Under the pieces are notes generated by a model, which did not search any database, was not told where the DNA came from, and was given only the letters and a program-made list of their open reading frames with translations. This document shows, piece after piece, positions 4,582-56,386 of a DNA stretch of 64,000 bases (the stretch's first letter is position 1; every line of letters starts with the position of its first letter). Both the position numbers and the translations under genes were made by a program. Source of the DNA: Candidatus Saccharimonadota bacterium (GTDB lineage Bacteria > Patescibacteriota > Saccharimonadia > Saccharimonadales > Saccharimonadaceae). Where the stretch lies: the NCBI GenBank assembly GCA_017545525.1, contig JAFWMT010000002.1:62001-126000 (forward strand), written 5' to 3'.

Positions 4582-6057
<1,476 letters not shown>

Positions 6058-6059
<2 letters not shown>

Positions 6060-11946: not shown

Positions 11947-12533
11947 GTAAAATAATGGTAGTCGAAGACGATGCTTCTCTTCGCGAAATCTACAGTATCC
12001 GTATTACCGCCGAAGGCTACGAAGTAGTTTCAGCGGGCGACGGCGAGGAAGCCCTTGCGGTTGCCGTACGCGAAAAACCGGATTTAATTTTGTCTGATGT
12101 GATGATGCCGAAAATTTCCGGTTTTGATATGCTAGATATTTTGCGTTCAACTCCAGAAACTGCCAGTATCAAAGTTGTCATGATGACCGCTCTTTCCGCC
12201 GAAGATCAACGTCAACGTGGTGAACGTCTTGGCGCTGACCGCTATTTAGTTAAGTCTCAAGTTGGTATTGAAGATGTAATTAATACTATTCACGAAGTTT
12301 TAGGCGACAAAGAAGTTTCTGCGCCTGCCCCAGCAGCTCCCGAAGCGCCCGGCGCACCCGCTCCTGAAGCTCCAGCAGCGCCTACTGCACCAGCTCCAGC
12401 ACCTGAAGCCCCTGCTCCCGAAGCACCTGCTCCAGCAGCTCCCGAAGCGCCCGTTGCACCCGCTCCTGAAGCTCCAGCTCCTAATCCTCAGGTAAATTAT
12501 GAGCAACCAGCCCCAGAAAATCCGGCTCAATAA
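11943..12533 (+). CDS. Response regulator receiver with Pro/Ala repeat tail, no output domain
   Basis: 196 aa. Receiver domain at 1-120 with acidic pair Asp9/Asp10, phospho-acceptor Asp52 in LILSDVMMPK and Lys in YLVKSQ. Instead of a DNA-binding output domain there is a repetitive Ala/Pro/Glu tail (about 125-196, APEAP units) encoded partly by a 47-nt direct repeat. The partner kinase ends in a similar tail. Output would have to be by protein contact. Its last 35 nt overlap the start of the pseudouridine synthase gene. Confidence 0.9.
   Translation: MSKIMVVEDDASLREIYSIRITAEGYEVVSAGDGEEALAVAVREKPDLILSDVMMPKISGFDMLDILRSTPETASIKVVMMTALSAEDQRQRGERLGADRYLVKSQVGIEDVINTIHEVLGDKEVSAPAPAAPEAPGAPAPEAPAAPTAPAPAPEAPAPEAPAPAAPEAPVAPAPEAPAPNPQVNYEQPAPENPAQ
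12330..12376 (+). repeat. 47-nt direct repeat, copy 1 (response regulator tail)
   Basis: Begins CCAGCAGCTCCCGAAGCG. The same 47 nt recur at 12432-12478 with two differences, extending the Ala/Pro tail by internal duplication. Confidence 0.8.
12432..12478 (+). repeat. 47-nt direct repeat, copy 2 (response regulator tail)
   Basis: Second copy of the repeat at 12330-12376; differs only at the GC/TT dinucleotide in its middle. Confidence 0.8.
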
Positions 12534-13284
12534 ATTTCTTGCCGAACGTCTTGGTTTTTCTCGTCGCGAAGCCGATGAACTAATCAGCGCTGGTAAAGTT
12601 ACCGTGGATGGAAAAACCGCGATTTTAGGGGATAGAATTGACAAAAATAACAAAGTGTGCTATAATAAGAAAATAATTCCGTTTGCGACGGAATTTTCTT
12701 ATCTTGCATTTCATAAACCAGTTGGCTACGTTTGTTCTCGGCGCGCTCAGGGTTCTACCCCGACACTTTATGAACTTTTACCAGCAAAATATCAAAAATT
12801 GAAAACTGTTGGCCGCCTTGATAAAGATTCTTCCGGGCTAATTCTATTAACTAACGATGGTGATTTTGCTTTTGCAATGACCCACCCGAAATTCCGCAAA
12901 CAAAAAGTTTATGAAGTCGAGCTTAATAAACCTCTTGAACCGTTGCACCAACAAATGATTTCCGAATATGGCGTTATGCTTGATGACGGCCCTTCGCAAT
13001 TTAAGGTAATCAAAGATGATTTTGCAAAACCGTCTTCTTCGGGACGCTCCTCGCGCCCGTCTTCACGGGGCTCGTCGCTGCGTCCTCGTAGCAACTGCGG
13101 ATGCCCCTCAGAAGAGGTTTTGCAAAATCAATACATAGTTACTTTATCCGAAGGACGTAATCGACAAATCCGTCGTACTTTTTCCGCATTGGGCTATCAA
13201 GTGGCGAAACTCCATCGTACTCAATTTGGAAAATACGCTTTAAACAACCTTAAACCAGGCGAATACGAAGAGTTTAAAATCTAA
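12499..13284 (+). CDS. RsuA/RluB-family rRNA pseudouridine synthase with S4 domain and in-frame insertion
   Basis: 261 aa. N-terminal S4 RNA-binding domain (IRLNKFLAERLGFSRREADE, about 8-60) and a pseudouridine synthase domain with catalytic Asp108 in GRLDKDSSG. It should isomerise a uridine in 16S or 23S rRNA; RluB versus RsuA cannot be told from the motifs. Residues about 174-210 are a Ser/Arg-rich insert (SSSGRSSRPSSRG) encoded by a palindromic GC-rich element, interrupting the stretch before the conserved EGRNRQIRR motif. The start is inside the end of the response regulator gene, so translation is likely coupled. Confidence 0.88.
   Translation: MSNQPQKIRLNKFLAERLGFSRREADELISAGKVTVDGKTAILGDRIDKNNKVCYNKKIIPFATEFSYLAFHKPVGYVCSRRAQGSTPTLYELLPAKYQKLKTVGRLDKDSSGLILLTNDGDFAFAMTHPKFRKQKVYEVELNKPLEPLHQQMISEYGVMLDDGPSQFKVIKDDFAKPSSSGRSSRPSSRGSSLRPRSNCGCPSEEVLQNQYIVTLSEGRNRQIRRTFSALGYQVAKLHRTQFGKYALNNLKPGEYEEFKI
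13018..13129 (+). repeat. Intragenic palindromic element in the pseudouridine synthase gene (class B, inverted)
   Basis: Arms of about 26 nt (13018-13043 and 13104-13129) share GATTTTGCAAAACC followed by a CTTCT-type block. The core carries CCCGUCUUCACGGGG, the reverse complement of the class B hairpin CCCCGUGAAGACGGG, so the element lies opposite in orientation to those in obgE. The frame stays open. Confidence 0.85.
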
Positions 13285-16713: not shown

Positions 16714-16743
16714 AAAAAAGTCAAGCCAAGCCTTGACTTTTTT
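16714..16743. terminator. Bidirectional intrinsic terminator
   Basis: Twelve-bp stem AAAAAAGTCAAG/CTTGACTTTTTT with a CCAAGC loop. A-run on one side and T-run on the other, so it can end both the small plus-strand gene and the convergent mnmA. Confidence 0.85.
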
Positions 16744-18017
16744 TATTCCGCTATAATTCCGCCGCCGAGGCAAACCTCGCCATCGTAAAACACCGCCGAC
16801 TGTCCACTCGCCGGCCGTTTGATTTTATTCTCAAAATATAGAGTATCCCCTTTAAGTGTCGCCGGAATCAATGGTGCACGATGCCGTAGGCGAACCAACA
16901 TTAAAGAGCTTTCATTTCGTTCGGGGCCGCGTCCGGCCGGCCCGTCGACCCTTCGGGTCGTCCGCGTCCCAAGGGGCGGTCCGCCACGGGCGGCCGGCGC
17001 TATGACTCGCGCTGCCGCGCTCCGTAATGCCCCGAATCGAAAAGAAAGCTCTTTTAATTTAAGTTTGTCTACCCACAAATTTTCATCATTCAAATTTTTC
17101 GATACGTAAACAATATTGTTTTTTATATCCTTTTTCACAACATAATACGGCAAGCCATCATTTACTGCGCCCTTTTCACCATTTAAATATAACCCGTGCC
17201 TCTGGCCAATCGTATAGAATATTGCCCCTTCATGCACCCCGAGCACTTTCTCGCTCTCGACTTCGCGTATTTCGCCAGGTTTCATTTCAATATATTCTTT
17301 CAAAAAGTCCTTCATCCCCACTTCGCCGACAAAACACACCCCCATAGACTCTTTTTTATAAGCATTATGCAACCCTTTTTCCTTTGCTAATTTCTTTACT
17401 TCTGGTTTTAACATCTCGCCAATCGGAAAAATCGTATGGGCCAAAGCCTCATCCGAAATTCGATAAAGAAAATACGTCTGATCTTTATTTTCGTCAACTG
17501 CTCTAAGCAACAATATATTGGCAGATAAGTCTCGACTTGGGGGATTACGGAGCGCGGCAGCGCGAGTCATAGCGCCGGCCGCCCATGGCGATGGGCCGGC
17601 CGGACGCGACCCCAAGCGAGACTTATCTGACAATCCTATTCTCGCATAATGCCCTGTCGCAATAAAATCAGCTCCCTCTTCCATCGCTTTTTCGTAAAAC
17701 AACTTAAACTTAATTTCTTGATTACACATAATATCCGGATTCGGCGTATTACCAGCTTTAAACTCGGATAACATATACTCTACAACTTTCTCTCGATATT
17801 CTTTTTCGAAATCAAATACCTTAAAATCAATCCCGAGTTTTACCGCCACTCTTTTTGCATCCGCAAGATCTTCCGCCCACGGACATTTCATACCAGGTAA
17901 ATCTCGAGACCAATTTTTCATATATACGCCAACCACCTTAAAACCTTGTTCCTTCAAAAGTAAAGCCGAAACACTCGAATCAACTCCTCCGCTCATCCCG
18001 ACATACACTGTTTTCAT
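16743..18017 (-). CDS. mnmA: tRNA 2-thiouridylase MnmA carrying two in-frame palindromic insertions
   Basis: Adds sulfur to U34 of Lys/Glu/Gln tRNAs. PP-loop ATPase motif SGGVDSS (9-15), catalytic Cys98 in NPDIMCNQEIKF and Cys228 in SMGVCFVGE, and VDENKDQTYFL at 174-184. At 424 aa it is about 60 residues longer than usual; the excess is two inserts, residues about 128-167 (just after ATGHYARI) and about 321-372 (in the C-terminal beta-barrel before the end motif). Both are translated GC-rich elements rich in Arg/Pro/Ala. The catalytic set is intact, so the enzyme is probably active. Leaderless-type start. Sulfur would come from a cysteine desulfurase such as 21329-22600. Confidence 0.93.
   Translation of the reverse strand: MKTVYVGMSGGVDSSVSALLLKEQGFKVVGVYMKNWSRDLPGMKCPWAEDLADAKRVAVKLGIDFKVFDFEKEYREKVVEYMLSEFKAGNTPNPDIMCNQEIKFKLFYEKAMEEGADFIATGHYARIGLSDKSRLGSRPAGPSPWAAGAMTRAAALRNPPSRDLSANILLLRAVDENKDQTYFLYRISDEALAHTIFPIGEMLKPEVKKLAKEKGLHNAYKKESMGVCFVGEVGMKDFLKEYIEMKPGEIREVESEKVLGVHEGAIFYTIGQRHGLYLNGEKGAVNDGLPYYVVKKDIKNNIVYVSKNLNDENLWVDKLKLKELSFRFGALRSAAARVIAPAARGGPPLGTRTTRRVDGPAGRGPERNESSLMLVRLRHRAPLIPATLKGDTLYFENKIKRPASGQSAVFYDGEVCLGGGIIAE
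16901..17057 (-). repeat. Intragenic palindromic element, mnmA distal copy (class A, long variable arm)
   Basis: 157 nt. Arms 16901-16925 and 17030-17057 share AAAGAGCTTTC and TTCGGGG. Read on the plus strand the core has the class A 3' block GCUAUGACUCGCGC-UGCC-GCGCUCCGUAAU, and a variable region expanded with extra hairpins (CGACCC-UUCG-GGGUCG and others). It sits in the opposite orientation to the other mnmA copy relative to the gene. Confidence 0.85.
17517..17634 (-). repeat. Intragenic palindromic element, mnmA proximal copy (class A)
   Basis: 118 nt. Arms share CAGATAAGTCTCG and CTTGGGG. The core is identical to the tatD element over GGGGATTACGGAGCGCGGC and onwards, but its GGCCG stem is lengthened by CCCAU-GGCG-AUGGG. 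Read in the same frame as in tatD, giving GSRPAG...MTRAAALRNPP in both proteins. Confidence 0.88.
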
Positions 18018-18087
18018 GAAAAATATTATAACATAAATACCTTAAAAAATAAAACGCTATTTTTTACCAGCTTGAAACAGTTAGTGC

Positions 18088-18155
18088 TATAATAAAAAAT
18101 AAGCGTATTACGCCCAAATTTTGCGTATACGCGGTCAAACATAAACGGAGTCACA
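18088..18155 (+). promoter_or_regulatory. Promoter and structured leader of surface protein gene 1
   Basis: Extended -10 TGC-TATAAT (18088-18093) without a clear -35. The leader that follows contains GCGTATTACGC and GCGTATACGC blocks similar to those upstream of the paralogous gene (GCGCATTGCGC, GCACTGCGC). GGAG at 18147-18150 precedes a GTG start. Confidence 0.55.
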
Positions 18156-19748
18156 GTGGGAGGACTGGAAAAAACAGTCACAAAATTAGTGCTGGTTTTC
18201 ATGACTCTACTAGGCGGACAATTAATTTTTGGAACGCCAGTTTTTGGTGTCACAGCGCCATCCATCTCAATCAGCCTTGGCTCTTCATTAGCCTTATCTC
18301 TAGATCCAGGCGTTCTTGGTACCACTTCCCAAACTATCAGTATTACTACAAATAATTACACTGGCTATACAGCAACCTTAACAAACTCTACTAATGCTAC
18401 AGATTTAGTCAATTCTAGCAATAATTCGCTAGTTATTCCTACTATTACCTTGCCACAAGGCTCATCTACTATTACCACCAGTCAATTCTCTAGTGGTTAT
18501 GGTCTTAGTACGGACGGCACTAATTACCGCCCAGCTCCAACCTCTTCTGCTAGTCTTTCACTTGGTAGTAGAAATACTGCCGGTACTACTTCACATACTC
18601 TTTATCTTGCTGTTCTACCAGATATTGGCACAGCTTCGGGTACTTACACTAAAGCTTATGTAGTTTCAGCTGTAGTTAATAATCCAGAATATTCTATCAC
18701 CTTTAACGCTAACGCTGGTACTGATACTGTTTCTGATATGCCAACTAATATTTCTACTACAACATCTAGCACCGGTACTATTACCCTACCAAATACCGTA
18801 CCTACTCGTTCTAACTATACCTTCCTTGGTTGGGATACTAATAGCTCTGCTACAACCCCAACTTATCCAAAGAATAATACCAACACCATAGACCTAGAAC
18901 CTACTCAGGCTAATGGGATTGTGCTTTATGCGATATGGCAAAGTAGCGGCGGTGGCTCCGGTACTTGGACCGATCCGATTGAAGATACTACCACAAATAC
19001 ATATGATCCCAATAATGTTCCAGCAAATTCCACCATCGTTTACGAAGGTATTACCGGGCATCCGCAAGTTTCTACCGACGAAGATGGCAACATTACTAGA
19101 TTTGAATATACGGATACCAGTTCAAGTAATCCGCTTGCACTAAACTCTGAATTTGACACTGGCGTATTAGCCTTTGATGGCGGGGGCTTCACTATTTCTC
19201 TAACTGGTAGTTTCCCGTGGACAGCTAATACCATTGCGCCAGTCATTTCACTTTCTGGGTTGATTAATGGTTCGGCGAGTGGCCTGAATGTCAATATTTC
19301 GAAAAATAATCAATTCTACACGAAGACTGATGGATCTCAAGTTGGTACCACGACGACCATCGACAGAATAAGGTGTTTCCAATATTCAGGTGGTACTCTC
19401 AGCAATACTTATAATTTATTATATAGCAATGATCCAACGGCAAACATTTCTGCAACGAACCAAAAAACACTGGGCTGGGCTCAAGCAGACGCGCCATTCG
19501 TAGGAACTATTATCGTTACAGGGACACCAAATGGCAGTAACATGGAAATAGATGTCAAGGCGTATAAATACAATACGAGTAACGACACCGATACGTTAAT
19601 TGGCATATTACAATCTCGCTATAAATATTCGATTTCGGGACTTCAATCGAGCGGTATTACCGTTGAACTAGGCTATTATCAAAGAAATACTAGTACGAGC
19701 TATAGCTACGCATTTTCAATTTATAAATTTAGCGTTATAAAAAATTAA
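18156..19748 (+). CDS. Secreted surface protein with one InlB-type B-repeat (paralog 1)
   Basis: 530 aa with a GTG start behind a GGAG Shine-Dalgarno. Signal sequence through about residue 32 ending GTPVFGVTA, then an N-terminal beta domain (about 33-185), one InlB B-repeat/Listeria-Bacteroides repeat (about 187-270, with PTRSNYTFLGWD and LYAIW), a low-complexity linker and a C-terminal lectin-like beta domain (FDTGVLAFDGGGFTISL). No LPXTG, no C-terminal membrane helix. Extremely Thr/Ser/Asn-rich. Probably exported and surface-displayed, perhaps in host contact. The paralog follows directly. Confidence 0.8.
   Translation: MGGLEKTVTKLVLVFMTLLGGQLIFGTPVFGVTAPSISISLGSSLALSLDPGVLGTTSQTISITTNNYTGYTATLTNSTNATDLVNSSNNSLVIPTITLPQGSSTITTSQFSSGYGLSTDGTNYRPAPTSSASLSLGSRNTAGTTSHTLYLAVLPDIGTASGTYTKAYVVSAVVNNPEYSITFNANAGTDTVSDMPTNISTTTSSTGTITLPNTVPTRSNYTFLGWDTNSSATTPTYPKNNTNTIDLEPTQANGIVLYAIWQSSGGGSGTWTDPIEDTTTNTYDPNNVPANSTIVYEGITGHPQVSTDEDGNITRFEYTDTSSSNPLALNSEFDTGVLAFDGGGFTISLTGSFPWTANTIAPVISLSGLINGSASGLNVNISKNNQFYTKTDGSQVGTTTTIDRIRCFQYSGGTLSNTYNLLYSNDPTANISATNQKTLGWAQADAPFVGTIIVTGTPNGSNMEIDVKAYKYNTSNDTDTLIGILQSRYKYSISGLQSSGITVELGYYQRNTSTSYSYAFSIYKFSVIKN
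18198..18255 (+). repeat. 58-nt signal-peptide repeat, copy 1
   Basis: Encodes MTLLGGQLIFGTPVFGVT. Matches 19915-19972 at 57 of 58 positions while the flanking coding sequence is clearly diverged. Confidence 0.85.
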
Positions 19749-19872
19749 AAAAGATAGTTTTTGCACAACTTTTTTACAATATAAAACCCTATTTTTAATA
19801 CGTTCATGGTAAAATAATAATGAGCGCATTGCGCCCTCGCACTGCGCTTTAAGAGAAAAATTGGGAGTTATA

Positions 19873-21348
19873 GTGAAAATAAAACGAATTTTTTTCGTTA
19901 AATTAACATTTTCATTCATGACTCTACTAGGCGGACAATTAATTTTTGGAACGCCAGTTTTTGGCGTCACAGATGCATCTATATCAATCAATATTAGTTC
20001 TTCTTTGTCACTTAGTTTAATGCCTGGGGTCTTCGGTTCAACCTCGCAAAGTGTCAGCGTTACGAGGGATAACTATACCGGCTATACTGTAGCCCTAACT
20101 AATTCGACCAATTCAACCGATTTAGTTAATGTGAGCGACAACACAAAAATGATCCCAACTATTACGCTTCCGCAAGGTTCTAATTCTATCACCCAGAATC
20201 AGTTTACTAATGGTTATGGCTTCAGTACAAACGGGACGAATTATGTCCCCGCTCCAACTTCTTCTTCCGATATTACTCTCGGGAATAGAAATAATGCCGG
20301 AACGAGCACTCACGATCTATATTTTGGCGCTTTGCCAGACATTAATATCGATAATGGTACCTATACTAAAGATTTTGTAATTGCAGTTGTAGCTAATGAC
20401 CCACAATATTCAATAACCTATAATGCTAATGCTGGTAGTGACACGGTTAGCAATATGCCAAGTAATCAAAGCGTCACTATTTCTAGCACCGGCACAGTTA
20501 CTTTATCCAATAATAATCCAACTCGTTCGGGTTACACTTTCCTTGGTTGGGATGAAGATGGCACCGTCACCTCTAATCCTACTTACTCACCAGGAGATAT
20601 TATTACCTTAGAGCCCACGCAAGCTAATGCAATTACGTTGTATGCAATTTGGGAGCCAATCAGTAGAATAATCCACGACACTACCACCACGGTTTATAGT
20701 CCATCCGCTGTACCTGCAGGCTATACGGTCTACTTTGATAATCCAAATATTGAAGGAAATCCAATTGTGGAGGCCGATGATGACGGGAACATCATCTCAT
20801 TTGAGTATACCAACATTAGCACCAACGGTATTACCTTTAGTTCAGGTCATTCTCTTAACACTGGCATTAAAGCATTTGACGGCACCGGCTTCACTATTCA
20901 TCTCGTAGTCAAAATGAGTCCAAAAAACAATGGTGGCAAAATGCTCGTTTCAGCATTTCAACAAAACAGCGGTAGCTCAAACTATGCCGGATTTACATTC
21001 TATTGTTATAGTCAACAGTATTTCTATCTTAACGCTTCTACTTCGTCTTCGATTACCGGGACCAGTTTCGGTACACATATCAATAGTAGTGGTTGGCGAG
21101 TTCAGAATCAGGAGAATACTTTTACATTAGACCTTACATATACGCCGGCACCAAACAAAAGCGTTTCCGCCACCTTTACGCCAGTCCGTTCTGGTTCTAG
21201 TAGTTTTAGCAGTAATGACACTAATATGATGGCCTATATTCCAGATAGCCTAGCAAATGCGACCATTATCTTGAGTGGCACCGGCATAGATAGTTCAAAA
21301 GACTTATCAAGCGCTGTCATTTACGAATTTAGCGTGACAAAGCCTTAA
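19873..21348 (+). CDS. Secreted surface protein with one InlB-type B-repeat (paralog 2)
   Basis: 491 aa. I place the start at the GTG at 19873, aligned with paralog 1 and preceded by GGGAG; a TTG at 19861 would overlap that Shine-Dalgarno. Same layout as its neighbour: signal sequence ending GTPVFGVTD, N-terminal beta domain, one B-repeat (PTRSGYTFLGWD, LYAIW), linker, C-terminal domain (LNTGIKAFDGTGFTIHL). The N-terminal domains are close, the C-terminal halves much less so, as expected if the distal domain sets ligand or antigen specificity. Its end overlaps the convergent desulfurase gene by 20 nt. Confidence 0.8.
   Translation: MKIKRIFFVKLTFSFMTLLGGQLIFGTPVFGVTDASISINISSSLSLSLMPGVFGSTSQSVSVTRDNYTGYTVALTNSTNSTDLVNVSDNTKMIPTITLPQGSNSITQNQFTNGYGFSTNGTNYVPAPTSSSDITLGNRNNAGTSTHDLYFGALPDINIDNGTYTKDFVIAVVANDPQYSITYNANAGSDTVSNMPSNQSVTISSTGTVTLSNNNPTRSGYTFLGWDEDGTVTSNPTYSPGDIITLEPTQANAITLYAIWEPISRIIHDTTTTVYSPSAVPAGYTVYFDNPNIEGNPIVEADDDGNIISFEYTNISTNGITFSSGHSLNTGIKAFDGTGFTIHLVVKMSPKNNGGKMLVSAFQQNSGSSNYAGFTFYCYSQQYFYLNASTSSSITGTSFGTHINSSGWRVQNQENTFTLDLTYTPAPNKSVSATFTPVRSGSSSFSSNDTNMMAYIPDSLANATIILSGTGIDSSKDLSSAVIYEFSVTKP
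19915..19972 (+). repeat. 58-nt signal-peptide repeat, copy 2
   Basis: Second copy of the block at 18198-18255; single T/C difference. Confidence 0.85.
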
Positions 21349-22600
21349 TTCTTTGATATTCGTTTTTTACTATTTCGTTGATTATTTTTACAGCTTCATG
21401 AATTTGATCCTCGTCGTTCGTTTCGCCGAGCGTAATTCGTAAAGATCCCGCAATTTGCTCATCAGATAAGCCAATGGCTTCTAAGACATGTGATCTGACG
21501 CCTTTCGACGCTGCACAAGCCGCCCCCGTTGCTACGTAAACCCCTTTTTCTTCAAGAAGGAACACCAATCGTTCCGCATCTATACCATTATAGCATAAAA
21601 CCATAAAATTATCAAGAACATGCTTATGGTTAATTAGTTCATACCCCTGTAATTCCGTTAATAAAATCTTACGCCAATTTACATATTTTTTTCGATTTCC
21701 GTTCAGATGTTTTTTGGCTAGTTCCATCGCTTTAGCGAACCCGATTACGCCTGGCACATTTTCAGTACCAGAACGTAGCCCATTTTCTTGCCCACCACCT
21801 AAAGTTAAGGGCTTTAGTTTTACATCATGCGAAACATATAACGCTCCCACCCCTTTCGGACCATAGATTTTCCCAGCATTTAGAGTCAATAAATCTACCC
21901 CAAGTCTCGCCACATTAATATCTAATAAATTCAACGCCTGCGAAGCATCCGAATGTAATAATAACTGTTTTTTAATTCCCCGCTTCATCCGTTCAATTTT
22001 AATCTCTCGAATTATGCTTGCTACTTCTGCTAACGGCTGCACTGTCCCAAGTTCATTGTTTGCTAGTGAAACCGAAATCAATTCTGTCTCATCTGTTATT
22101 TTCTTTTTCAAATCATCTAGATCAATTATCCCGTTTGGTAGTACCTTGATGGCTTCGCCCCCATACCGCTCCGCCACATGTCTAACCGAATCATGCTCAG
22201 TTATTAGATATAGGATTCTATGGCACGAAGGATGCTCTCGTTCGAGGAGCATAATCGCCGACGGGGCGATTCCGGAGCGACCGAGCCCCGTAACGACGGG
22301 AGCGAGGGAGCGTTCCGAGAACGATGAGCATCTTCGTGCTTCATCGGAAAACTTATTTGATAAAGATGTAAACGCTAAATTATTCGCTTCAGTCGCTCCG
22401 GCAGTAATAATGAGATCAGAGCCTTTAACACCAATTGCATGCGCAATCGTATTTTTCGCCGCTTCATAATCTGAAGAAACTTCTTTCGCCGGCAAATACG
22501 CCGCCGAAGGATTAAAAAAACGCTCCGTAAAATACGGTTTCATTGCCTCTAAAACCCGCTTATCTACTGGCGTTGCTGCAGCATGGTCAAGATAAATCAT
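21329..22600 (-). CDS. Cysteine desulfurase (IscS/NifS family) with in-frame palindromic insertion
   Basis: PLP enzyme releasing sulfur from cysteine for thiolation or Fe-S assembly. I start it at 22600 (MIYLDHAAATPVD), the family's usual N-terminus: the upstream ATG overlaps a TATAAT box (22607-22612) exactly 6 nt before this start. Motifs are TAGATEANNLAF, the ITEHDS His, the Lys loop region (LNAGKIYGPKGVGALY) and catalytic Cys in ATGAACAASKG. Residues about 88-126 are a translated GC-rich palindrome placed just before the PSCHRILYLITEHDS strand. It may supply sulfur to MnmA; no IscU or SufB gene is in view. Confidence 0.9.
   Translation of the reverse strand: MIYLDHAAATPVDKRVLEAMKPYFTERFFNPSAAYLPAKEVSSDYEAAKNTIAHAIGVKGSDLIITAGATEANNLAFTSLSNKFSDEARRCSSFSERSLAPVVTGLGRSGIAPSAIMLLEREHPSCHRILYLITEHDSVRHVAERYGGEAIKVLPNGIIDLDDLKKKITDETELISVSLANNELGTVQPLAEVASIIREIKIERMKRGIKKQLLLHSDASQALNLLDINVARLGVDLLTLNAGKIYGPKGVGALYVSHDVKLKPLTLGGGQENGLRSGTENVPGVIGFAKAMELAKKHLNGNRKKYVNWRKILLTELQGYELINHKHVLDNFMVLCYNGIDAERLVFLLEEKGVYVATGAACAASKGVRSHVLEAIGLSDEQIAGSLRITLGETNDEDQIHEAVKIINEIVKNEYQRIKALSR
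22223..22339 (-). repeat. Intragenic palindromic element in the cysteine desulfurase gene (class B)
   Basis: 117 nt. Arms (about 22223-22244 and 22317-22339) share GCACGAAG, ATGCTC and TCGTTC. The core contains CCCCG-UAACGA-CGGG and CCGGAGCGACCGAG, matching class B. Translated as an insert containing [17 protein letters not shown]. Confidence 0.85.
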
Positions 22601-22650
22601 GCCCATATTATAATACATTTTCGGGTAAAAGAAAAATGCCTACGCTTTAA

Positions 22651-23157
22651 TTATTTACTCTCAAACTCACCGACGAATCTGTAGCTATTTTCTCCGCTTG
22701 TTAGCGTCAAAACTCCATTATTTTGGTCTAATTCATATTCATATTCATCATTTAGAGTATAAAGCCAATCCGTTTCTATCAAAATCTTCCCGTCCTCAAT
22801 CGCCCAAATGAAATCATAGTCATTCAAGTGATTATTCGTCGTCAGAGTACCTTTACCAATTTCTGTAAATTTCCAATATACGCTTGGTATACAATTTGTC
22901 GTATCTTCCTCACCACTAGCGATACAATTAGTCCCTTCGTCTAAAACCCATTCTTTCGCCGAAACGAGATACTCCCCATCTTCAACACCCGCGCCTTCGT
23001 TCAACTTCAAAATCAAAAATACCAACCCAACAACTAATACGATTAATCCAACCACAAACACTAGGATCGAAAGAACTTTTTTCCCCCGCCAATCCCCGCC
23101 TTTAGAAACACGTTTTTTAGTTTTTTTCTCACCAAGATTTTGATTCGTTTCTTCCAT
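22651..23157 (-). CDS. Hypothetical membrane-anchored protein with lipocalin-like outer domain
   Basis: 168 aa. Basic N-terminus, one membrane helix (about 28-50), then about 110 residues of beta-type sequence with several Trp (VYWKFTEIGKGTL, DYDFIWAIEDGK). Spacing resembles small lipocalin-like or calycin domains, but I do not recognise a family. Two Cys around residues 87 and 98 may form a disulfide outside the membrane. It lies downstream of the 125-aa unknown gene with a 9-nt gap and is probably in its operon. Confidence 0.65.
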   Translation of the reverse strand: MEETNQNLGEKKTKKRVSKGGDWRGKKVLSILVFVVGLIVLVVGLVFLILKLNEGAGVEDGEYLVSAKEWVLDEGTNCIASGEEDTTNCIPSVYWKFTEIGKGTLTTNNHLNDYDFIWAIEDGKILIETDWLYTLNDEYEYELDQNNGVLTLTSGENSYRFVGEFESK

Positions 23158-23166
23158 AACTCTATT

Positions 23167-23544
23167 TTAGCAATAGAGTTTTGTTTTGACAAGATTTAGG
23201 TAAGAGTGCGCTGCCTTTCTAAAGTTTTCCAATTCTTCGCCCTCAATTTTATGATAATCGCTCTTATTTACACGTTTATAAACTCCGGTCGGACGCACTT
23301 CGTACCGAATCGTCATTTCCTGCATTTTACCTAGGTTATCAAGAAAGTTTTCGTGCCAAATCCAAACATTTTTCTTCGACTCAAAAAACTCTCGCTGATG
23401 TCCCGCCGGAATTGGCCCAAATAGCGTTCGCCCCAGCGCACTCTCGGCATTTACTAAATCGTCATAACTCAACTTATTAGTATAAGTTTCTCTCGGTTCA
23501 AACAAATTTGCCAAGTTATCTTTTAGCAGTTTCTTAAGCGACAT
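23167..23544 (-). CDS. Hypothetical soluble protein (125 aa)
   Basis: Contains GPIPAGHQREFFESKKNVWIWHENF and a following MTIRYEV...GVYKRVN segment, a compact alpha/beta pattern with no signal peptide. GAGGAG Shine-Dalgarno before the ATG lies inside the preceding small gene, whose last 22 nt overlap this start, so the pair is translationally coupled. I do not recognise the family. Confidence 0.7.
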   Translation of the reverse strand: MSLKKLLKDNLANLFEPRETYTNKLSYDDLVNAESALGRTLFGPIPAGHQREFFESKKNVWIWHENFLDNLGKMQEMTIRYEVRPTGVYKRVNKSDYHKIEGEELENFRKAAHSYLNLVKTKLYC

Positions 23545-23681
23545 TTTTCAATCTCCTCAGCAATTGCATTTAGTTCTTCATAGATTGTGCGACTATCTTT
23601 TGTGGCCTCATCAAAATCATACGCCTTCTGCCGTTCAAAAGACGGTACCCGGAAAGTACTCTTTAGGTCACTAGTATCCAT
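23523..23681 (-). CDS. Small leaderless protein (52 aa) coupled to the 125-aa gene
   Basis: Frame MDTSDLKSTFRVPSFE... to ...EEIEKCRLRNC, predicted helical and acidic. A full promoter, TTGACT (23711-23716), 17 nt, TGA-TATAAT (23688-23693), places the transcription start at the ATG itself, so no leader exists. Its end overlaps the next gene by 22 nt, and the GAGGAG within it serves as that gene's ribosome-binding site. Leader-peptide-like coupling or a small partner protein is possible. Confidence 0.65.
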   Translation of the reverse strand: MDTSDLKSTFRVPSFERQKAYDFDEATKDSRTIYEELNAIAEEIEKCRLRNC

Positions 23682-23687
23682 ACTCTA

Positions 23688-23716
23688 ATTATATCACGAA
23701 ATGCCTAAAAAGTCAA
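23688..23716 (-). promoter_or_regulatory. Leaderless promoter inside the end of tatD
   Basis: -35 TTGACT overlaps the tatD 3' end; 17-nt spacer; extended -10 TGA-TATAAT ends 6 nt before the ATG at 23681. Confidence 0.75.
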
Positions 23717-24502
23717 CCTAAACAGGTTATTGGCGTTTTTAGTTGTAATTTTCGCCACCTCTGTTTCCGATATTTCTAACTGAGAAGAAAGCCATCTCGC
23801 AATATCGGCTATGAAAGCCGGTTCGTTAGTCGCGCCGCGATGCGGGATTGGTGCCAAAAATGGAGCATCAGTTTCGAGCAAAATTCGTTCAATTGGCGGC
23901 ATCGGCAGAGTCGTATAAGTCGCCAGTCCATTTACTCCAATATAATATTCAGTCTCATTTAAAACCCGTTTTAACACCTTTTTGCTATCCGTAAAAGAAT
24001 GCACTACTCCACGCACCTTCGGAAAATTATTTACTACCGCAAAGAAATCCGGGAACGCCTCTCGAACATGAAATGATACCGGCAAATCATTATCTTGCGC
24101 CAGCTGCAACATTTCTTCAAATAGCTTAATCTGCGCCTCTCGATTATACCCATCATAATGGTAGTCTAACCCTACTTCGCCAATAGCAATCGGAGAAGTA
24201 TCGATGTCCCAATTCGGGGGATTACGGAGCGCGGCAGCGCGAGTCATAGCGCCGGCCGGACGCGACCCCGAATGGGATATTGATACTTCTTCAGTTGCAT
24301 TTTCGGGATGTATACCATAAGTCCAATAAACATTTTCGTGTTTTTTAGCAAAATCACGTGCAGCCAAAGAATCTTTCGGATCAGTCCCGATACAGATAAT
24401 CTTTTCTATTCCTGCTCCATGCGCACGCTTAAGCATTTCTTCCGCCTGCTTGGCCGTAAAGAATTCTCGGTCGTGTAAATGACAATGCGTATCAATTAAC
24501 AT
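23705..24502 (-). CDS. tatD: TatD-family metal-dependent DNase with in-frame palindromic insertion
   Basis: Amidohydrolase-fold nuclease, 265 aa. Metal ligands are visible as His6/His8 in IDTHCHLHD, Glu in IGEVGLDYHY, the His in VSFHVRE, the His in GVVHSFT and the Asp in LLETDAPF. Residues about 71-103 are an insert (GSRPAGAMTRAAALRNPP) placed just before the IGEVGLD strand and encoded by a palindromic element also present in mnmA. Without it the length matches the family (about 250). -10 TATAAT 6 nt before the ATG; no Shine-Dalgarno. Confidence 0.92.
   Translation of the reverse strand: MLIDTHCHLHDREFFTAKQAEEMLKRAHGAGIEKIICIGTDPKDSLAARDFAKKHENVYWTYGIHPENATEEVSISHSGSRPAGAMTRAAALRNPPNWDIDTSPIAIGEVGLDYHYDGYNREAQIKLFEEMLQLAQDNDLPVSFHVREAFPDFFAVVNNFPKVRGVVHSFTDSKKVLKRVLNETEYYIGVNGLATYTTLPMPPIERILLETDAPFLAPIPHRGATNEPAFIADIARWLSSQLEISETEVAKITTKNANNLFRLTF
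24194..24290 (-). repeat. Intragenic palindromic element in tatD (class A, minimal)
   Basis: 97 nt. Arms share GAAGTATC, TCCCA and TTCGGGG with a few mismatches. The core is the shortest class A version: the GGCCG stem is reduced to GCCGGCCGG. Same orientation and reading frame relative to the gene as the proximal mnmA copy. Confidence 0.88.
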
Positions 24503-24520
24503 AGTAAAATTATATCATAG

Positions 24521-27505
24521 TTATTCGTCATCATATGGTACCATATCCTCGATTACCCTGTTAGAGACTAGATAATCTTTAAACATTTGAAGGGTGATGC
24601 CGTATCTTTGGAGATAAGCCGCTTCGCCGAGACGCAAATCATTAAACATTCGAAGTGGGATACCGATATCAGCGAAGTCTTCGTAGGTGTAAAGGTTATC
24701 CGGGTTGGATATAAATTCTGCGCGTGCAGCCGGCCACTGGACGTTGCCTTCAAAGCCGTAGAAGTTAGATGTGATTACGTAGCCGTTGGTCGTGAGGAAA
24801 TCGTCAGAGATGATGTTATAGTAGGTACTTGAAGTAATATAGTAGATATTTACTTGTTGTTCAACTCTCTCGATATTAGTAACTGTCACCGGAGTTAGTT
24901 GATCGTCTACGACTTTATAAACTCTGGTGCCAATTCCGAATTTACTAAAGTCATCTACTGATACGAATTCGTTCGCATCAACATCAAAGATACCATGCCA
25001 GCTTACTGTGCCTAGTGTCGAACCATCACTAAAGGTAGTTAGTTGATAGCTCGGCGATACGCTAGATTTCTCAATTCTAGCTGGGTGGACATAGCCGACT
25101 GTGCCAGTTTCGTGATTCCAAACTACCAACATATCGCTATAGGTAATATCTTCAATCGGTTTAGTAGTGCGTCTACCGTTTTCATCCAACACTGCAATCA
25201 TGGTACCTTCGATCAAACAGCCAGTAGAAGGGCAAGTCGCGGTAATTTGAATATTACCAGTTACGCCGCTGATTTCTACTACGCCATTGCTATAGGTAAA
25301 GTTAGTCGTTTGTTGTCCATTTACTCTTACCGTCACATCATTCTTACTAGACGGGGTAGTATAATCACTACTACTCGGCGTAATTGTACCTCGATAAGTT
25401 CCGCCCGCCCTTACGGTATTACCAGAATTATTTACTAAACTACCATTTGTGATGTTTCCGGTTATCGTATAGGCCCAACTAAGCGACACATTACCAGTGC
25501 CTGAGGCTGGCCCTGGATCTGTGTTTGCGCCATTAATTTGATTTTGTGTAGCGGTATTTCCTTCATCATCAAAACCAACTACGACAAAATTGTAAGTTCC
25601 ATCAGGAGTATTATTAAGGGTATACGAATTATCTAGCCCGCTAATTCCGGTTGCCACGCTAGTACATGTACTTTGACATCTATAAATGCTGTAACTGGCT
25701 ACACCAACATTATCAACACCAGTCCAGCTTATCACTACTCTTCCGTCAACTGCATTATCTCTAGTAATCGAAACTCCGCTAATAGTTGGGGCTTGGCTAT
25801 CGACATATGACGGATCCCTATCTACCTTAATATTTACTTCGCCCACATTAGTATAAGTACTGTCGTATGAGATGGTAATACCAGCAGTAGTAGTCTCTGA
25901 AGCGAATGCGGCACCACTAGCTTTCTTCATGTAAAAGGTATAAGTTCCAGTCGTCTCGGCGGCAATAGTTTGGGCTCCTAGCGGCTGACCACTACTATTT
26001 ACGATTTCAAAATCGGAACTCAGTGTATTGATAGTGAAAGTTTTTGTTTCTTCGAAAGTACTCTCTACACTAATTTGGAATGAAGTTAGCGTATTGTTTC
26101 CAGACAAATCCCCGCTATTACTTCCAGAAATGGCACCAACTAGACTCGGGTCTCTCTGGGTGACCGGGTCAACTTCGATACCGCCCTCCGCGCTGTGCTC
26201 GCCCGAGACATAGTCAGTTTCGAGAATAATATTAAACGATACTGATGAATTTGCCGGAATAGTGTCGCCTACGGCAATGCCACTTAGAGTATAAGTAATA
26301 TCACGCACTTCAGTCGGGGAAATTCTTAAAGTTAAGTTAGAAGATGGTGCGGTGAAGGTGTAATCGTCGTCAGTAGAGTTTGTTACAGTTAGACGATAAG
26401 TTGCCTGCAGTGTATCGGTATTATCTAAGCCACCCAAGAAGGTAAGATCGAAATTAATCTCGCCAGTGGTGGAGTCTATGGATGGGTTTGGTGTGCCGCT
26501 AACATTAATACCTGAAACATAGCTAATTCCGGTGATTTTAACGTCACCAGTTTCGATATACTCATACCCATCGTTAATCGTATAGGTAATTCCAAGCGAG
26601 CTGATGTTTACTACTACGTCAGTTGGCTCTGGAAAATGCGCAGCCGTAGTACAAGTAACCACGAGTACACCCGTGCTAACGCTGCTGCTTGGAGAAGTAC
26701 AAGTATTTCCGCCAATAGTGACACTAACACCCGAAGGTACATAATCTATCATTAACGATGTCGTAATAGTAACAGTTTCTCCACCAGCTTTTACTCCAGA
26801 CGTTGGCGTAATTGTCGCTTCTCCGCCCACCACATCCGAAGCTTCAGATGTTACATGATACGAAATATTCGTTCGGTAAGTTCCAGGGTTGGTCAACACA
26901 TCTGTTCCTAGGCGCATTCCATAGTAGATATTGAAACTATCGTTACCAGAAACCGTTCCAGTTACATTTCTAATTAAAGTACTATTTGGGCTTACTTTTA
27001 CCCCGGCATAATTGCCATTCACCGCTGGCGAATCGGCCGAATAAGCGTTACTAAAGTTGTTGGTAGGAAGATACGATGTTCCACTCGGAATGCCAAAACC
27101 CCACGTGTCACTACTCAACGTGTTTGCCGTGCTAGGCGTAGTGTTAATTGGCGCAATTGAAGGGCTGGATGAGGAACCTCCGACTAGCAACAAGCTTCCG
27201 GCCGACGCTTCCGACGTAGGCACATCGACATAGACCCGATATCCGGATGGCGAATTTGTACTTACCGTCATTGTTCGCATAGCGCCAACATATTTATCAC
27301 TATCCCAAGTTAATGGCGTATATTCAATGCTCTGATTTTGGTTTTGCAAACTAACATTCAACGTATAATTACTAGGGTTAATTGTTGCAAAAACAGAGCC
27401 ATCTAGTCTTAACAATGCTAACAAAAACACAGCCATTGTTAGCCATAATACTTTCACCAAAATGACTTTAGGGTTTTTTACATCTCTCCAATAAACTCTC
27501 TTCAC
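24521..27505 (-). CDS. Large secreted surface protein with C-terminal Hint-like autoprocessing domain
   Basis: 994 aa, GTG start. N-terminal signal/anchor (about 13-34), then an N-terminal beta domain related in style to those of the twin surface proteins (SGYRVYVDV), several Ig/fibronectin-like beta domains including one with VVISWTGVDNVGVASYSIYRC (about 590-660), and a final region starting at Cys763. That region (CLIEGTMIAV, then PIEDITYSDMLVVWN, then SWHGIF with His837) has the order of a Hint domain: N-terminal nucleophile Cys, PxxDI block, conserved His. Hint domains cleave or splice their own chain. About 80 residues follow it. Probably exported and self-processed, as in polymorphic toxins or lipid-modified hedgehog-like proteins. 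Confidence 0.75.
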   Translation of the reverse strand: MKRVYWRDVKNPKVILVKVLWLTMAVFLLALLRLDGSVFATINPSNYTLNVSLQNQNQSIEYTPLTWDSDKYVGAMRTMTVSTNSPSGYRVYVDVPTSEASAGSLLLVGGSSSSPSIAPINTTPSTANTLSSDTWGFGIPSGTSYLPTNNFSNAYSADSPAVNGNYAGVKVSPNSTLIRNVTGTVSGNDSFNIYYGMRLGTDVLTNPGTYRTNISYHVTSEASDVVGGEATITPTSGVKAGGETVTITTSLMIDYVPSGVSVTIGGNTCTSPSSSVSTGVLVVTCTTAAHFPEPTDVVVNISSLGITYTINDGYEYIETGDVKITGISYVSGINVSGTPNPSIDSTTGEINFDLTFLGGLDNTDTLQATYRLTVTNSTDDDYTFTAPSSNLTLRISPTEVRDITYTLSGIAVGDTIPANSSVSFNIILETDYVSGEHSAEGGIEVDPVTQRDPSLVGAISGSNSGDLSGNNTLTSFQISVESTFEETKTFTINTLSSDFEIVNSSGQPLGAQTIAAETTGTYTFYMKKASGAAFASETTTAGITISYDSTYTNVGEVNIKVDRDPSYVDSQAPTISGVSITRDNAVDGRVVISWTGVDNVGVASYSIYRCQSTCTSVATGISGLDNSYTLNNTPDGTYNFVVVGFDDEGNTATQNQINGANTDPGPASGTGNVSLSWAYTITGNITNGSLVNNSGNTVRAGGTYRGTITPSSSDYTTPSSKNDVTVRVNGQQTTNFTYSNGVVEISGVTGNIQITATCPSTGCLIEGTMIAVLDENGRRTTKPIEDITYSDMLVVWNHETGTVGYVHPARIEKSSVSPSYQLTTFSDGSTLGTVSWHGIFDVDANEFVSVDDFSKFGIGTRVYKVVDDQLTPVTVTNIERVEQQVNIYYITSSTYYNIISDDFLTTNGYVITSNFYGFEGNVQWPAARAEFISNPDNLYTYEDFADIGIPLRMFNDLRLGEAAYLQRYGITLQMFKDYLVSNRVIEDMVPYDDE

Positions 27506-50521: not shown

Positions 50522-51880
50522 TTAGTGTTCTTTGTCGAGCGACATAAAACGTAGTAGCTCCGGATGGAAGTAGAGTTCAATCGTTCCAATTGCACCATGG
50601 CGGTGTTTTCTAATCAGAAGTTCAGTAATATGAGTCTCTTCTTCCTCCGGTTTCTTGTAATAATCCGTTCTGTGTAGGAACATTACCAAATCGGCGTCTT
50701 GCTCAATCGAACCTGATTCGCGCAAATCCGACAAAACCGGCCTCGGGTCGTCTCTTCCTGTTACACCACGCGACAACTGCGCCAACGCTACCACCGGGAT
50801 TTCTAATTCACGCGCTAAAATTTTCAAACCACGCGAGATTTCCGTTACTTCCTGTACACGATTCCCCGCATATCTATCCGAGCCCGAAATCAGTTGTAGG
50901 TAGTCTACAATCACGATACCAATATCATGATCATGCATCGCACGCCGAGCTTTGTTACGAAGTTCCATAATCGTCATCGAGCTCGTATCATCTATATACA
51001 CAGGAAGCTCATCCATTTCGCCCAATGCTTCACCAATTCTTTGGAATTCTTCGTCAGAAAGATTACCAGTCCGCATTCTCCAGTTATCAACTCCTGACAC
51101 ATCCGAAATCATCCGGTCGACGATTTCATTTGCCGCCATCTCCATCGAGAAAAATAAAACACCCTTATTGTTTATGCTTGCAATATTATAAGCCAAATTT
51201 TGCGCAAAAGTTGTTTTACCCATCGCTGGACGTGCCCCGACAATGATTAAGTCACCCTTTTGAAAACCAGCCGTCTTTTTGTCCAAATCTCGAAAGCCAG
51301 TTTTTAGACCTCGGAGCGCTCCTTTATTTTTGTGTAATTCTTCAATCCTATCGAACGCATCCGCCAACAAATCGTTCATTGCAACATAATCACTTTTTAT
51401 AATTTTATCGGAAACTTCAAACAAATCTTTTTCCGCCCCACCAATTAAATCGTTCACTTCCGCATCGTCTTCGTAAGCCTTATTCGCAATATCTGTACCC
51501 GCTTTAATTAAGCGCCTTCTTACCGAAGCCTTTTCAATAATTTCCGCATAAGCTTTCGCATGCGAAGCTGCTGGCACGAAGTTCGATAGTTCCGTTAAAT
51601 AAGCTCCCCCACCGACTTCTTTTAATTTCTTTTTCGCTCGTAGTTCCGAAGTTAAAGTTAGTAAGTCTACCGGTTTATGCTGATCATATAAATGTATCAT
51701 CGCCTCAAAAATAATTTCGTGGCGTTTTTCGTAAAAGTCCCGCGGTTTTAAAATCGTCAAAATCTCCGGCAACACACCATCCGCAATCATAATCGCTCCG
51801 AGCAAGGATTTCTCGGCTACGATGTCTTGAGGCGGAACTCTCCCGCCTTTTTCGTTAGAATGGGCTACCTCCTCCGTCAT
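50522..51880 (-). CDS. dnaB: Replicative DNA helicase DnaB
   Basis: 452 aa. N-terminal helical domain, RecA-type core with Walker A GARPAMGKTTF, VIVDYLQL and the family's LSRGVTGRDDPRPVLSDLRESG. Unwinds DNA at the fork. GGGAGGAG Shine-Dalgarno. The start lies inside the last 26 nt of dnaX, so helicase and clamp loader are expressed together. Confidence 0.95.
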   Translation of the reverse strand: MTEEVAHSNEKGGRVPPQDIVAEKSLLGAIMIADGVLPEILTILKPRDFYEKRHEIIFEAMIHLYDQHKPVDLLTLTSELRAKKKLKEVGGGAYLTELSNFVPAASHAKAYAEIIEKASVRRRLIKAGTDIANKAYEDDAEVNDLIGGAEKDLFEVSDKIIKSDYVAMNDLLADAFDRIEELHKNKGALRGLKTGFRDLDKKTAGFQKGDLIIVGARPAMGKTTFAQNLAYNIASINNKGVLFFSMEMAANEIVDRMISDVSGVDNWRMRTGNLSDEEFQRIGEALGEMDELPVYIDDTSSMTIMELRNKARRAMHDHDIGIVIVDYLQLISGSDRYAGNRVQEVTEISRGLKILARELEIPVVALAQLSRGVTGRDDPRPVLSDLRESGSIEQDADLVMFLHRTDYYKKPEEEETHITELLIRKHRHGAIGTIELYFHPELLRFMSLDKEH

Positions 51881-53264
51881 TTTTTACCTCTCCTCCCATT
51901 ATATCAGAAATTCGATCCAAAGTTTCATCTTTTTTCATTTGCCTAGGGGTCTCGCCAATTTCGTGTATTGTAATTTTTACCCCTCCACCCGCATCAATTA
52001 GAATCTTCTTATTATTATCCCGTGCTAAAATTGTTTTCACAATTTTTTTCTCCGGGTAAATCTCTAGTTCTTGATTATTAAACTCAAAACGACATTTTTT
52101 CAGTTGCAAATAAACCGCCTCATTCAACCCCTTCACCTTCTCCAAATATCCTCGCCAATCAAAGGCAGTAGTTTTTGAGGGCGTAAACACATCTTCTTTT
52201 GTGAGTATTTTTTGATTTGAATCTGAAAAATCTATATTCCTGACGTCCCCGAGAGGTTCGTCCGTAGGACGGTTCTCTCGGCGGACCAGCGTATGAGATT
52301 TTTCAGATTCAAGTCTACGAACAAAAGAAGATGTGTTTAGAGTCTTGTTAGATAAGGCTACGAGCAATTTCGCTTCCGCAAACGGCGCCTTAACATCGGT
52401 CAACTTACCTAGTAAAGACAAATACTCAGGCTTCGGCTCATTAATAATAGTCCTAATTAATTCTTCAGTTAAAGTCTCGGCTTTTACTCCCGAAGCTAAC
52501 AAATCTCTTAAAATCGTTGTAATTTTTACAACATTACCCGATGCATACTCTATCAAAAGTTCATTAATTTTTTCATCTTCCGGTAGTCCCATTGCCGAAA
52601 CTACCATATCTTTCGTAATCGTTTCTTGTGACAAGGTCGAAATTTGATCGAGTAAACTCAAAGAATCCCTAAATGACCCTTCACCTCGTTTTACGATAAT
52701 TTTTAACGCTTCATCATCAATTTTAATCTTTTCTTTTTCCGCTACCCCCTTCAAATACCTAAACATCGTTTCGGTATCAGCTAATTTAAAAGTATAAGTT
52801 TGTGCTCGCGAAGTAATCGTTACCGGAACTCTATAAGCATCAGTCGTCGCCATAATAAAAATTACATGTGCCGGCGGTTCCTCAAGCGTTTTTAAAAGTG
52901 CGTTAAACGCTTCTTTTGTTAACATATGTACTTCATCAATGATATATATTTTATACTTCCCACTCGTCGGCGCAATTGCGGCTTTTTCGCGTAGTTCCCT
53001 AATATTATCAATCCCCCGGTTCGAAGCCCCATCAATTTCAACAATATCAACATAATCGTCTTCGATTTCGTATTTAAACCCATTTACCTCATGCGCCAAA
53101 ATTCTCGCCACGCTCGTCTTCCCGCAGCCTCTCGGTCCAATAAAAAGATAGGCATGGCTAATCTTCCCCTGTTCAAGTGATTTGATTAACGGTTCCGTTA
53201 CTTGCGGCTGCCCAACTACATCCCGCAACGTTAGCGGCCTACATCTCCGGTATAAACTCTTCAT
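51855..53264 (-). CDS. dnaX: DNA polymerase III gamma/tau (DnaX) without zinc module and with palindromic insertion
   Basis: Clamp-loader ATPase, 469 aa. Walker A GPRGCGKTS (about 43-51), DEVHML box, sensor-1 region IMATTDAYRVPVTITSRAQT. The four-Cys zinc module normally between Walker A and the ASNRG motif is absent; the segment reads HEVNGFKYEIEDDYVD. After domain III, residues about 309-361 are a translated palindromic insert, followed by a tau-like C-terminal region. No poly-A slip site for a gamma form was noticed. -10 TATAAT (53273-53278) 8 nt before the ATG. Confidence 0.92.
   Translation of the reverse strand: MKSLYRRCRPLTLRDVVGQPQVTEPLIKSLEQGKISHAYLFIGPRGCGKTSVARILAHEVNGFKYEIEDDYVDIVEIDGASNRGIDNIRELREKAAIAPTSGKYKIYIIDEVHMLTKEAFNALLKTLEEPPAHVIFIMATTDAYRVPVTITSRAQTYTFKLADTETMFRYLKGVAEKEKIKIDDEALKIIVKRGEGSFRDSLSLLDQISTLSQETITKDMVVSAMGLPEDEKINELLIEYASGNVVKITTILRDLLASGVKAETLTEELIRTIINEPKPEYLSLLGKLTDVKAPFAEAKLLVALSNKTLNTSSFVRRLESEKSHTLVRRENRPTDEPLGDVRNIDFSDSNQKILTKEDVFTPSKTTAFDWRGYLEKVKGLNEAVYLQLKKCRFEFNNQELEIYPEKKIVKTILARDNNKKILIDAGGGVKITIHEIGETPRQMKKDETLDRISDIMGGEVKNDGGGSPF
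52184..52339 (-). repeat. Intragenic palindromic element in dnaX, longest coding arms
   Basis: 156 nt. Discontinuous arms reach about 50 nt on each side: TAAACACATCTTCTTTTG and TTTGAATCTGAAAAATC on the left have inverted partners on the right ending at 52339. The core hairpin is CCGAGAG...GUCC-GUA-GGAC...CUCUCGG and does not clearly match class A or B. The frame is open throughout. Confidence 0.85.
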
Positions 53265-56172: not shown

Positions 56173-56181
56173 ACTTAAATT

Positions 56182-56358
56182 ATACCATGGAAAACTAAAA
56201 TCTATTTTCCTCAGCGGATAAAATCCCGCCTAATAAAAAATATAATGTCAGCTAGATTTGCTCGCGACGACGTGACCTCGCTCGCAAATTGTGACATTAT
56301 ATTTTTTATTGGGGGTTTTATATGCTTCGGAAAAATAGATTTTAGTTTTCCTTGGCAT
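56182..56358. repeat. Long intergenic palindrome (about 177 bp) between rplL and the SufS-like gene
   Basis: Outer arms of about 30 nt share GGAAAACTAAAATCTATTTT, inner arms share AATAAAAAATATAATGTCA. The apical core is TTTGC-TCGCGACGACGTGACCTCGCTC-GCAAA. No gene inside. Could double as a terminator for rplL and as a regulator of the divergently oriented region; it has the same build as the intragenic elements. Confidence 0.8.
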
Positions 56359-56386
56359 ATACAATTAGCTAACCATTAATGATAAT

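Follow-up and report, generated by a model that had tools for sequence, protein, structure and literature searches.

Palindromic DNA elements lie in frame within protein genes of a Nanosyncoccus-like Saccharibacterium, whose genome comprises 720,812 bases in 9 contigs. The elements share a core, and the core is enclosed by two arms that are complementary to each other and peculiar to the site. These are probably in-frame palindromic DNA elements resembling Rickettsia palindromic elements (RPEs) that are translated with their host genes, and in which template switching homogenises and extends the arms. The most likely source of the pairing is DNA copying errors by which one arm is repeatedly rewritten from its partner. 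As judged from sequence, the best reading is that the inserts occupy positions in loops of housekeeping proteins where they are tolerated, and are translated as part of those proteins.

Elements in the window

A search with MnmA placed its relatives among Candidatus Saccharibacteria of rumen and gut; one of them is Candidatus Nanosyncoccus alces. Gene names were assigned by sequence recognition and orthologue alignments, and 174 genomes formed the search set for the genus. The features below are those of the window, i.e. the whole stretch of 64,000 nucleotides that was analysed.

4907–5028, minus strand: first element of the obgE-like ORF (4620–6059), arms 4907–4931 and 5004–5028
5684–5803, minus strand: second element of the obgE-like ORF (4620–6059), family B core, arms 5684–5711 and 5776–5803
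13017–13130, plus strand: element of the rluB-like ORF (12499–13284), arms 13017–13038 and 13110–13130
16743–18017, minus strand: mnmA ORF, without a stop across either insert, compared with orthologues
16903–16927: mnmA copy 2, low-coordinate arm, which is the sense 3′ arm and lies within the insert; strict inverted repeat, score 19
16928–17028, plus strand: mnmA copy 2 core, family A, antisense to mnmA
17029–17054, unstranded: mnmA copy 2, high-coordinate arm, overlapping the host codons KELSFR
17517–17542, unstranded: mnmA copy 1, low-coordinate arm, ATTGGCAGATAAGTCTCGACTTGGGG; strict inverted repeat, score 19
17543–17609, minus strand: mnmA copy 1 core, family A three-way junction, normalised orientation sense to mnmA
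17610–17634, unstranded: mnmA copy 1, high-coordinate arm, CCCCAAGCGAGACTTATCTGACAAT
22220–22344, minus strand: element of the nifS-like ORF (21329–22618), family D core plus arms
23705–24502, minus strand: tatD ORF, open across the insert
24194–24219, unstranded: tatD element, low-coordinate arm, AGAAGTATCGATGTCCCAATTCGGGG; strict inverted repeat, score 16
24220–24265, minus strand: tatD element core, shortened family A
24266–24290, unstranded: tatD element, high-coordinate arm, CCCCGAATGGGATATTGATACTTCT
52184–52339, unstranded: long palindrome within ORF 51855–53264, the loop being a different one; same phenomenon, different core
56181–56359, unstranded: long palindrome between genes, again with a different loop, strict arms 56181–56250 and 56292–56359

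A common core between unrelated arms

Aligned copies show the core to be a GC-rich three-way junction whose closing stem is formed by the arms. Core hairpin 1 has CCCGTCGCCACGGG or CCCGTCGTTACGGG at its apex, and core hairpin 2 is flanked by CTCG and CTCCG. Both hairpins vary in sequence while their pairing is retained, and there are conserved unpaired positions. A covariance model (18 rows, one with altered outer arm bases), which served only for finding and counting cores, finds the home genome to have 19 copies, each of them within an open ORF. In a sample of the order, the core family is present in 42 of the 43 species sampled from the genus and in 6 genomes from two other genera of the same family; it is absent from all remaining genomes of the sample.

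In mnmA copy 2 the apex loop itself contains a nested secondary hairpin, at about 16948–16981. Several species also carry hairpins nested in this loop (L109, L123, L091, L096), and a nested insert in the apex loop at L183:9229–9432, in obgE of G174, is flanked by the 5-nt direct repeat GACGG.

The arms behave differently from the core. At the 17 measurable loci of the 19 in the home genome, the identity between the two arms of a locus has a mean of 0.93 and a minimum of 0.81, vs a mean of 0.41 and a maximum of 0.64 in 272 comparisons between loci. Locus-specific arms are also seen at mnmA copy 2, nifS, rluB, the two obgE elements and the genome-wide covariance-model matches. The earlier note had drawn attention to mnmA copy 1 and tatD as having an almost identical core with unrelated arms that are complementary within each locus. 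The description of the arms holds, and their complementarity is far above chance. The cores are indeed shared, a 53-nt stretch over the core start being 92% identical, but the tatD core is without the distal part of hairpin 1 and “almost identical” was slightly generous. A closer match is that between mnmA copy 1 and the copy in a uvrB-like gene, where 66 of 66 core bases are identical and the arms are unrelated; arms beside identical cores therefore did not simply diverge after copying. Family D arms in different genes show a resemblance, so that part of the arm sequence may move along with the element.

Strict hairpins scoring at least 15 number 132 in 1.40 Mb of the genus, vs one in a Markov shuffle. 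Unbiased stretches from three members of the genus have 17 strict in-ORF hairpins per Mb, and three other genera have 5; the 80 mnmA loci, being centred on hotspot genes, constitute a biased density sample. Long in-ORF hairpins are thus enriched in the genus and not unique to it. Another genus (G322), which is without the core, has very long imperfect palindromes at L335:8155–8405, L335:4456–4771, L336:17836–17975 and L337:15816–15985, two of them within ORFs.

Inserts in protein loops

Across many species, the same protein loops are either empty or occupied by a variety of cores and arms. These hotspots include two loops of MnmA and loops of TatD, NifS, AlaS and RluB, and also of TlyA and UvrB. 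All 301 gene-by-site intervals analysed (the two MnmA loops, TatD, NifS, AlaS and RluB) are in frame and open. The inserts must therefore be translated, and bypass, splicing or excision is unnecessary. In mnmA loop 2 of L136, L138 and L147, three species at 92–93% identity have three different elements; the neighbouring codons differ as well, which suggests allele replacement by recombination.

The extent of the arms differs between loops. In MnmA loop 1, neither arm reaches 6 nt into a conserved block in 16 of 17 stems, and most stems terminate within about 12 nt of both conserved blocks. In loop 2, the sense 5′ arm of several species enters conserved LKDLLLR-type codons by 15–18 nt, and the 3′ arm, within the insert, is an inverted copy of the arm in the host codons. 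In TatD and NifS it is mainly the 3′ side that overlaps conserved codons. Growth of the palindromes thus seems to continue up to the point at which protein function would suffer. There is no consistent host side: of 93 cases, 10 have the better conserved arm 5′ and 13 have it 3′. A fixed polarity, with the host arm always 5′ or always 3′ or linked to core orientation, was tested and rejected.

Pairing in the arms

The arms of 168 distinct in-ORF elements, oriented by reading frame, contain 3881 Watson–Crick, 35 G-U, 67 A-C and 68 other pairs; mispairs were counted with a third hairpin-scoring setting, as one of the others was too stringent for this purpose and one too permissive. G-U makes up 0.9% of arm pairs, and tRNA stems from these genomes have 7.4%, a comparison that covers G-U only, as the tRNA program never brackets A-C. 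In the sense strand A-C outnumbers G-U by 67 to 35 (p = 0.002, with elements treated as independent), which is a strand asymmetry.

These counts bear on whether the arms are kept paired by compensatory mutation under selection for an mRNA hairpin that acts in stability, RNase III cleavage, translation control or ribosome bypass. The long-term preservation of pairing is in keeping with such selection, as is the moderate excess of cores in sense orientation relative to the reading frame (66 sense, 39 antisense). However, a G-U count below that of A-C is the opposite of what selection on the transcript predicts, and none of the 23 double changes in nifS described below is a G-U pair. In addition, cores are found in both orientations and have been inverted in place, and every interval is open and in frame. 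Selection for an mRNA hairpin is considered very unlikely, and the proposal in the earlier note that a transcript hairpin is selected for excision, RNase III cutting or bypass is not supported by these data. As a speculation, the excess of A-C would fit correction that acts on hairpins of the single-stranded sense DNA. G-T would still pair in such sense-strand hairpins, which might permit a fold-back that corrects G-T.

Arm evolution and proposed template switching

Changes in the arms were followed over two evolutionary distances. In a trio of species at 92–93% identity, arm changes are one-sided (16 A-C, 12 G-T and 6 other) with one compensated. In seven more distant nifS orthologues, all 12 variable pairs have changed on both sides. 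The nifS arms, entered with one unpaired base per row omitted, were checked against the loci and give 23 double-change cells with no G-U and 10 unpaired cells, a result reached by none of 500 shuffles, and the rows share ancestry so that the counts are not independent events. As changes are one-sided in the short term and two-sided in the long term, mismatches arise singly and are removed later.

Cores have also flipped between arms that were kept. The identity of the inverted vs the forward core is 0.96 vs 0.65 in alaS, 0.91 vs 0.58 and 0.92 vs 0.61 in mnmA loop 2, and 0.96 vs 0.63 in nifS. Polymerase template switching in yeast coding DNA results in arm homogenisation and spacer inversion (PMC8604942). 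It has also been argued that stems are both generated and preserved by template switching (PMC8794818).

A coreless palindrome adds to this. In the conserved N-terminal region KI[EK]GA..AF[ND]F of TlyA (L278–L318), 12.2 of 14 positions pair, vs 8.9 expected from codon usage, and the palindrome covaries between species, the N/D change included. This suggests that homogenisation of arms here needs no core. There are further short-loop coding palindromes.

The proposed mechanism can be outlined as follows. The core would make the strand fold back during DNA replication, and polymerase template switching, i.e. quasipalindrome correction, might then repeatedly recopy one arm from its partner. The same process would lengthen the palindrome outwards until selection on the protein halts growth, and could sometimes invert the core. 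Among the species representatives, of which the closest useful set is 92–93% identical, no single template-switch event was observed directly.

The earlier note had supposed that one side of the palindrome was copied from the other. As an account of how arms are maintained this is upheld by paired covariation without G-U, by core inversion and by arms that stop at or copy host codons; as an account of insertion it is not, since most empty orthologues of obgE, tlyA and mnmA have neither arm.

Origin of the arms

Empty alleles had been put forward as a test, in which a single arm would mean that the other was created at insertion, and a full palindrome that elements target existing ones. Most empty alleles are short loops without a palindrome, and they usually have neither arm; a palindrome without a core was encountered once, as a perfect palindrome in the tlyA hotspot of G005. 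Half-elements that have kept one arm are present in tlyA of G034 and mnmA loop 1 of L080, and these look like deletion remnants. In the species trio at 92–93% identity, where many elements are shared, no recent insertion was found beside an otherwise identical empty allele. One of the three species is empty at obgE, and there the flanking codons differ too, which suggests allele replacement. The trio also has one non-coding candidate insertion (element 17), without a clean alignment.

Perhaps the second arm is made during insertion itself, the core joining a target end, snapping back and priming synthesis. An identical core with unrelated arms at two loci of one genome agrees with such a fold-back. 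So do mnmA loop 2, where one arm carries host codons in inverted copy, and tlyA, where a few host bases are shared with an empty allele. Against it are the empty alleles that mostly have neither arm and the inconsistent host side (10 vs 13 of 93), and later template switching yields the same patterns. Fold-back insertion is possible but rather doubtful. The same tentative standing is given to its extended form, whereby the three-way-junction core primes snap-back synthesis and each insertion makes a site-specific terminal repeat that is subsequently kept by template switching.

The palindromes might instead have been present before the cores, which would then enter them or be swapped between them. 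The G005 palindrome could be such a site, there are other short-loop coding palindromes, and similar cores are seen among copies within a single genome. But with most empty alleles lacking any palindrome, and with half-elements showing that the G005 case may itself be a remnant, this explanation is improbable.

A further question is whether arms are kept paired by selection as a DNA structure, for use by an enzyme that mobilises single-stranded DNA. Pairing that is Watson–Crick only agrees with this idea, and so does a core with conserved unpaired positions and covarying hairpins; part of the arm covariation could stem from selection on DNA structure. However, a Y1 transposase (PF01797) was found in 8 of the 174 genus genomes and not in the home genome, resident copies would require lasting selection, and arm length varies widely among elements. 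As a general explanation it is unlikely. Neither a Y1 transposase nor a reverse transcriptase (PF00078) was found in the home genome, and both were rejected as agents of dispersal there. Reverse transcriptases (PF00078) are present in 98 of the 174 genus genomes, mostly in ORFs near 380 amino acids; these are possibly diversity-generating retroelements.

Relation to known palindromic elements

Homogenisation and extension of arms by template switching, the reading preferred here, unites two phenomena known separately, namely palindromes dispersed through coding sequence and the repair of palindromes by template switching. RPEs are small dispersed palindromes found in frame in unrelated genes and encoding a shared peptide (Ogata et al., 2000, 2002, cited in PMC6649704 and PMC10969869), and RPE stems are reported to lose repeat identity over time (PMC6649704). 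The Saccharibacterial elements resemble RPEs in being dispersed and in frame in unrelated genes (301 of 301 intervals open, 19 of 19 home copies in ORFs), with host protein function apparently kept. They differ in that the core is conserved between loci and the palindrome is not (arm identity 0.41 on average), and in a stem that is locus-specific and stays paired while changing. In addition, they belong to another group of organisms, and the core is apparently unrelated, as far as can be judged from the Rfam search of the window at gathering scores, which gave an L10 leader only. As the palindrome is not conserved between loci, the elements are not filed as RPEs.

Mitochondria of Nematomorpha have near-perfect inverted repeats in translated genes that are dynamic between species and are probably maintained by conversion or template switching (PMC6649704). 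The translated inverted repeats and the arm maintenance are comparable; however, there is no shared mobile core in Nematomorpha and both arms encode conserved protein, whereas here a core family is dispersed and most arms lie within inserts. The byp elements of Magnusiomyces mitochondria are palindromes that interrupt coding genes, as are the present ones, and are reported to be untranslated (cited in PMC6649704). The inserts described here keep the frame open, and the unconstrained frame and stops of byp elements are not seen, there being no frameshift or stop in 301 intervals.

Template switching and quasipalindrome correction are known to produce arm homogenisation, spacer inversion and multi-base compensatory change (PMC8604942, PMC8794818, PMC7202029). 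Double changes without G-U intermediates and spacer inversion (in alaS, mnmA loop 2 and nifS) are both found here. Template switches are known as scattered events, whereas here they would affect a whole family of dispersed elements throughout a genus.

MITEs have fixed terminal inverted repeats, a target site duplication and a parent transposon. In the present elements the terminal repeats are not fixed, and a 5-nt direct repeat (GACGG) was seen only at the nested insert of L183; the search for a parent transposon covered Y1 transposase and reverse transcriptase. REP/RAYT and REPIN elements are small dispersed hairpins; REPs lie mainly outside genes, conserve their palindrome and are associated with a Y1 transposase. 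In contrast, each of the 19 home copies lies within an ORF, and neither an extragenic location nor an associated Y1 (RAYT) transposase was found for them in the home genome. A search of the literature outside subscription papers found no report of such elements in Saccharibacteria.

The 19 core copies in one 0.72-Mb genome, as part of a genus-wide system, provide natural replicates for measuring the frequency of fold-back self-copying. They also let one study how palindromes grow up to protein limits and how proteins accommodate insertions of 30–60 residues. It should be cautioned that stem covariation need not imply a selected RNA.

Other features of the window

An Rfam search of the window at gathering scores returned the ribosomal protein L10 leader only (RF00557, 57313–57462). 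The ORFs at 18156–19748 and 19861–21348 encode adjacent paralogous proteins of secreted type, with 71% identity across a 300-nt stretch and a repeated GYTFLGWD-like motif. At 24521–27505 is a large surface-type protein, the C-terminal part of which (CLIEGTMIAV...) resembles, by eye, a Hint (intein-like) domain.
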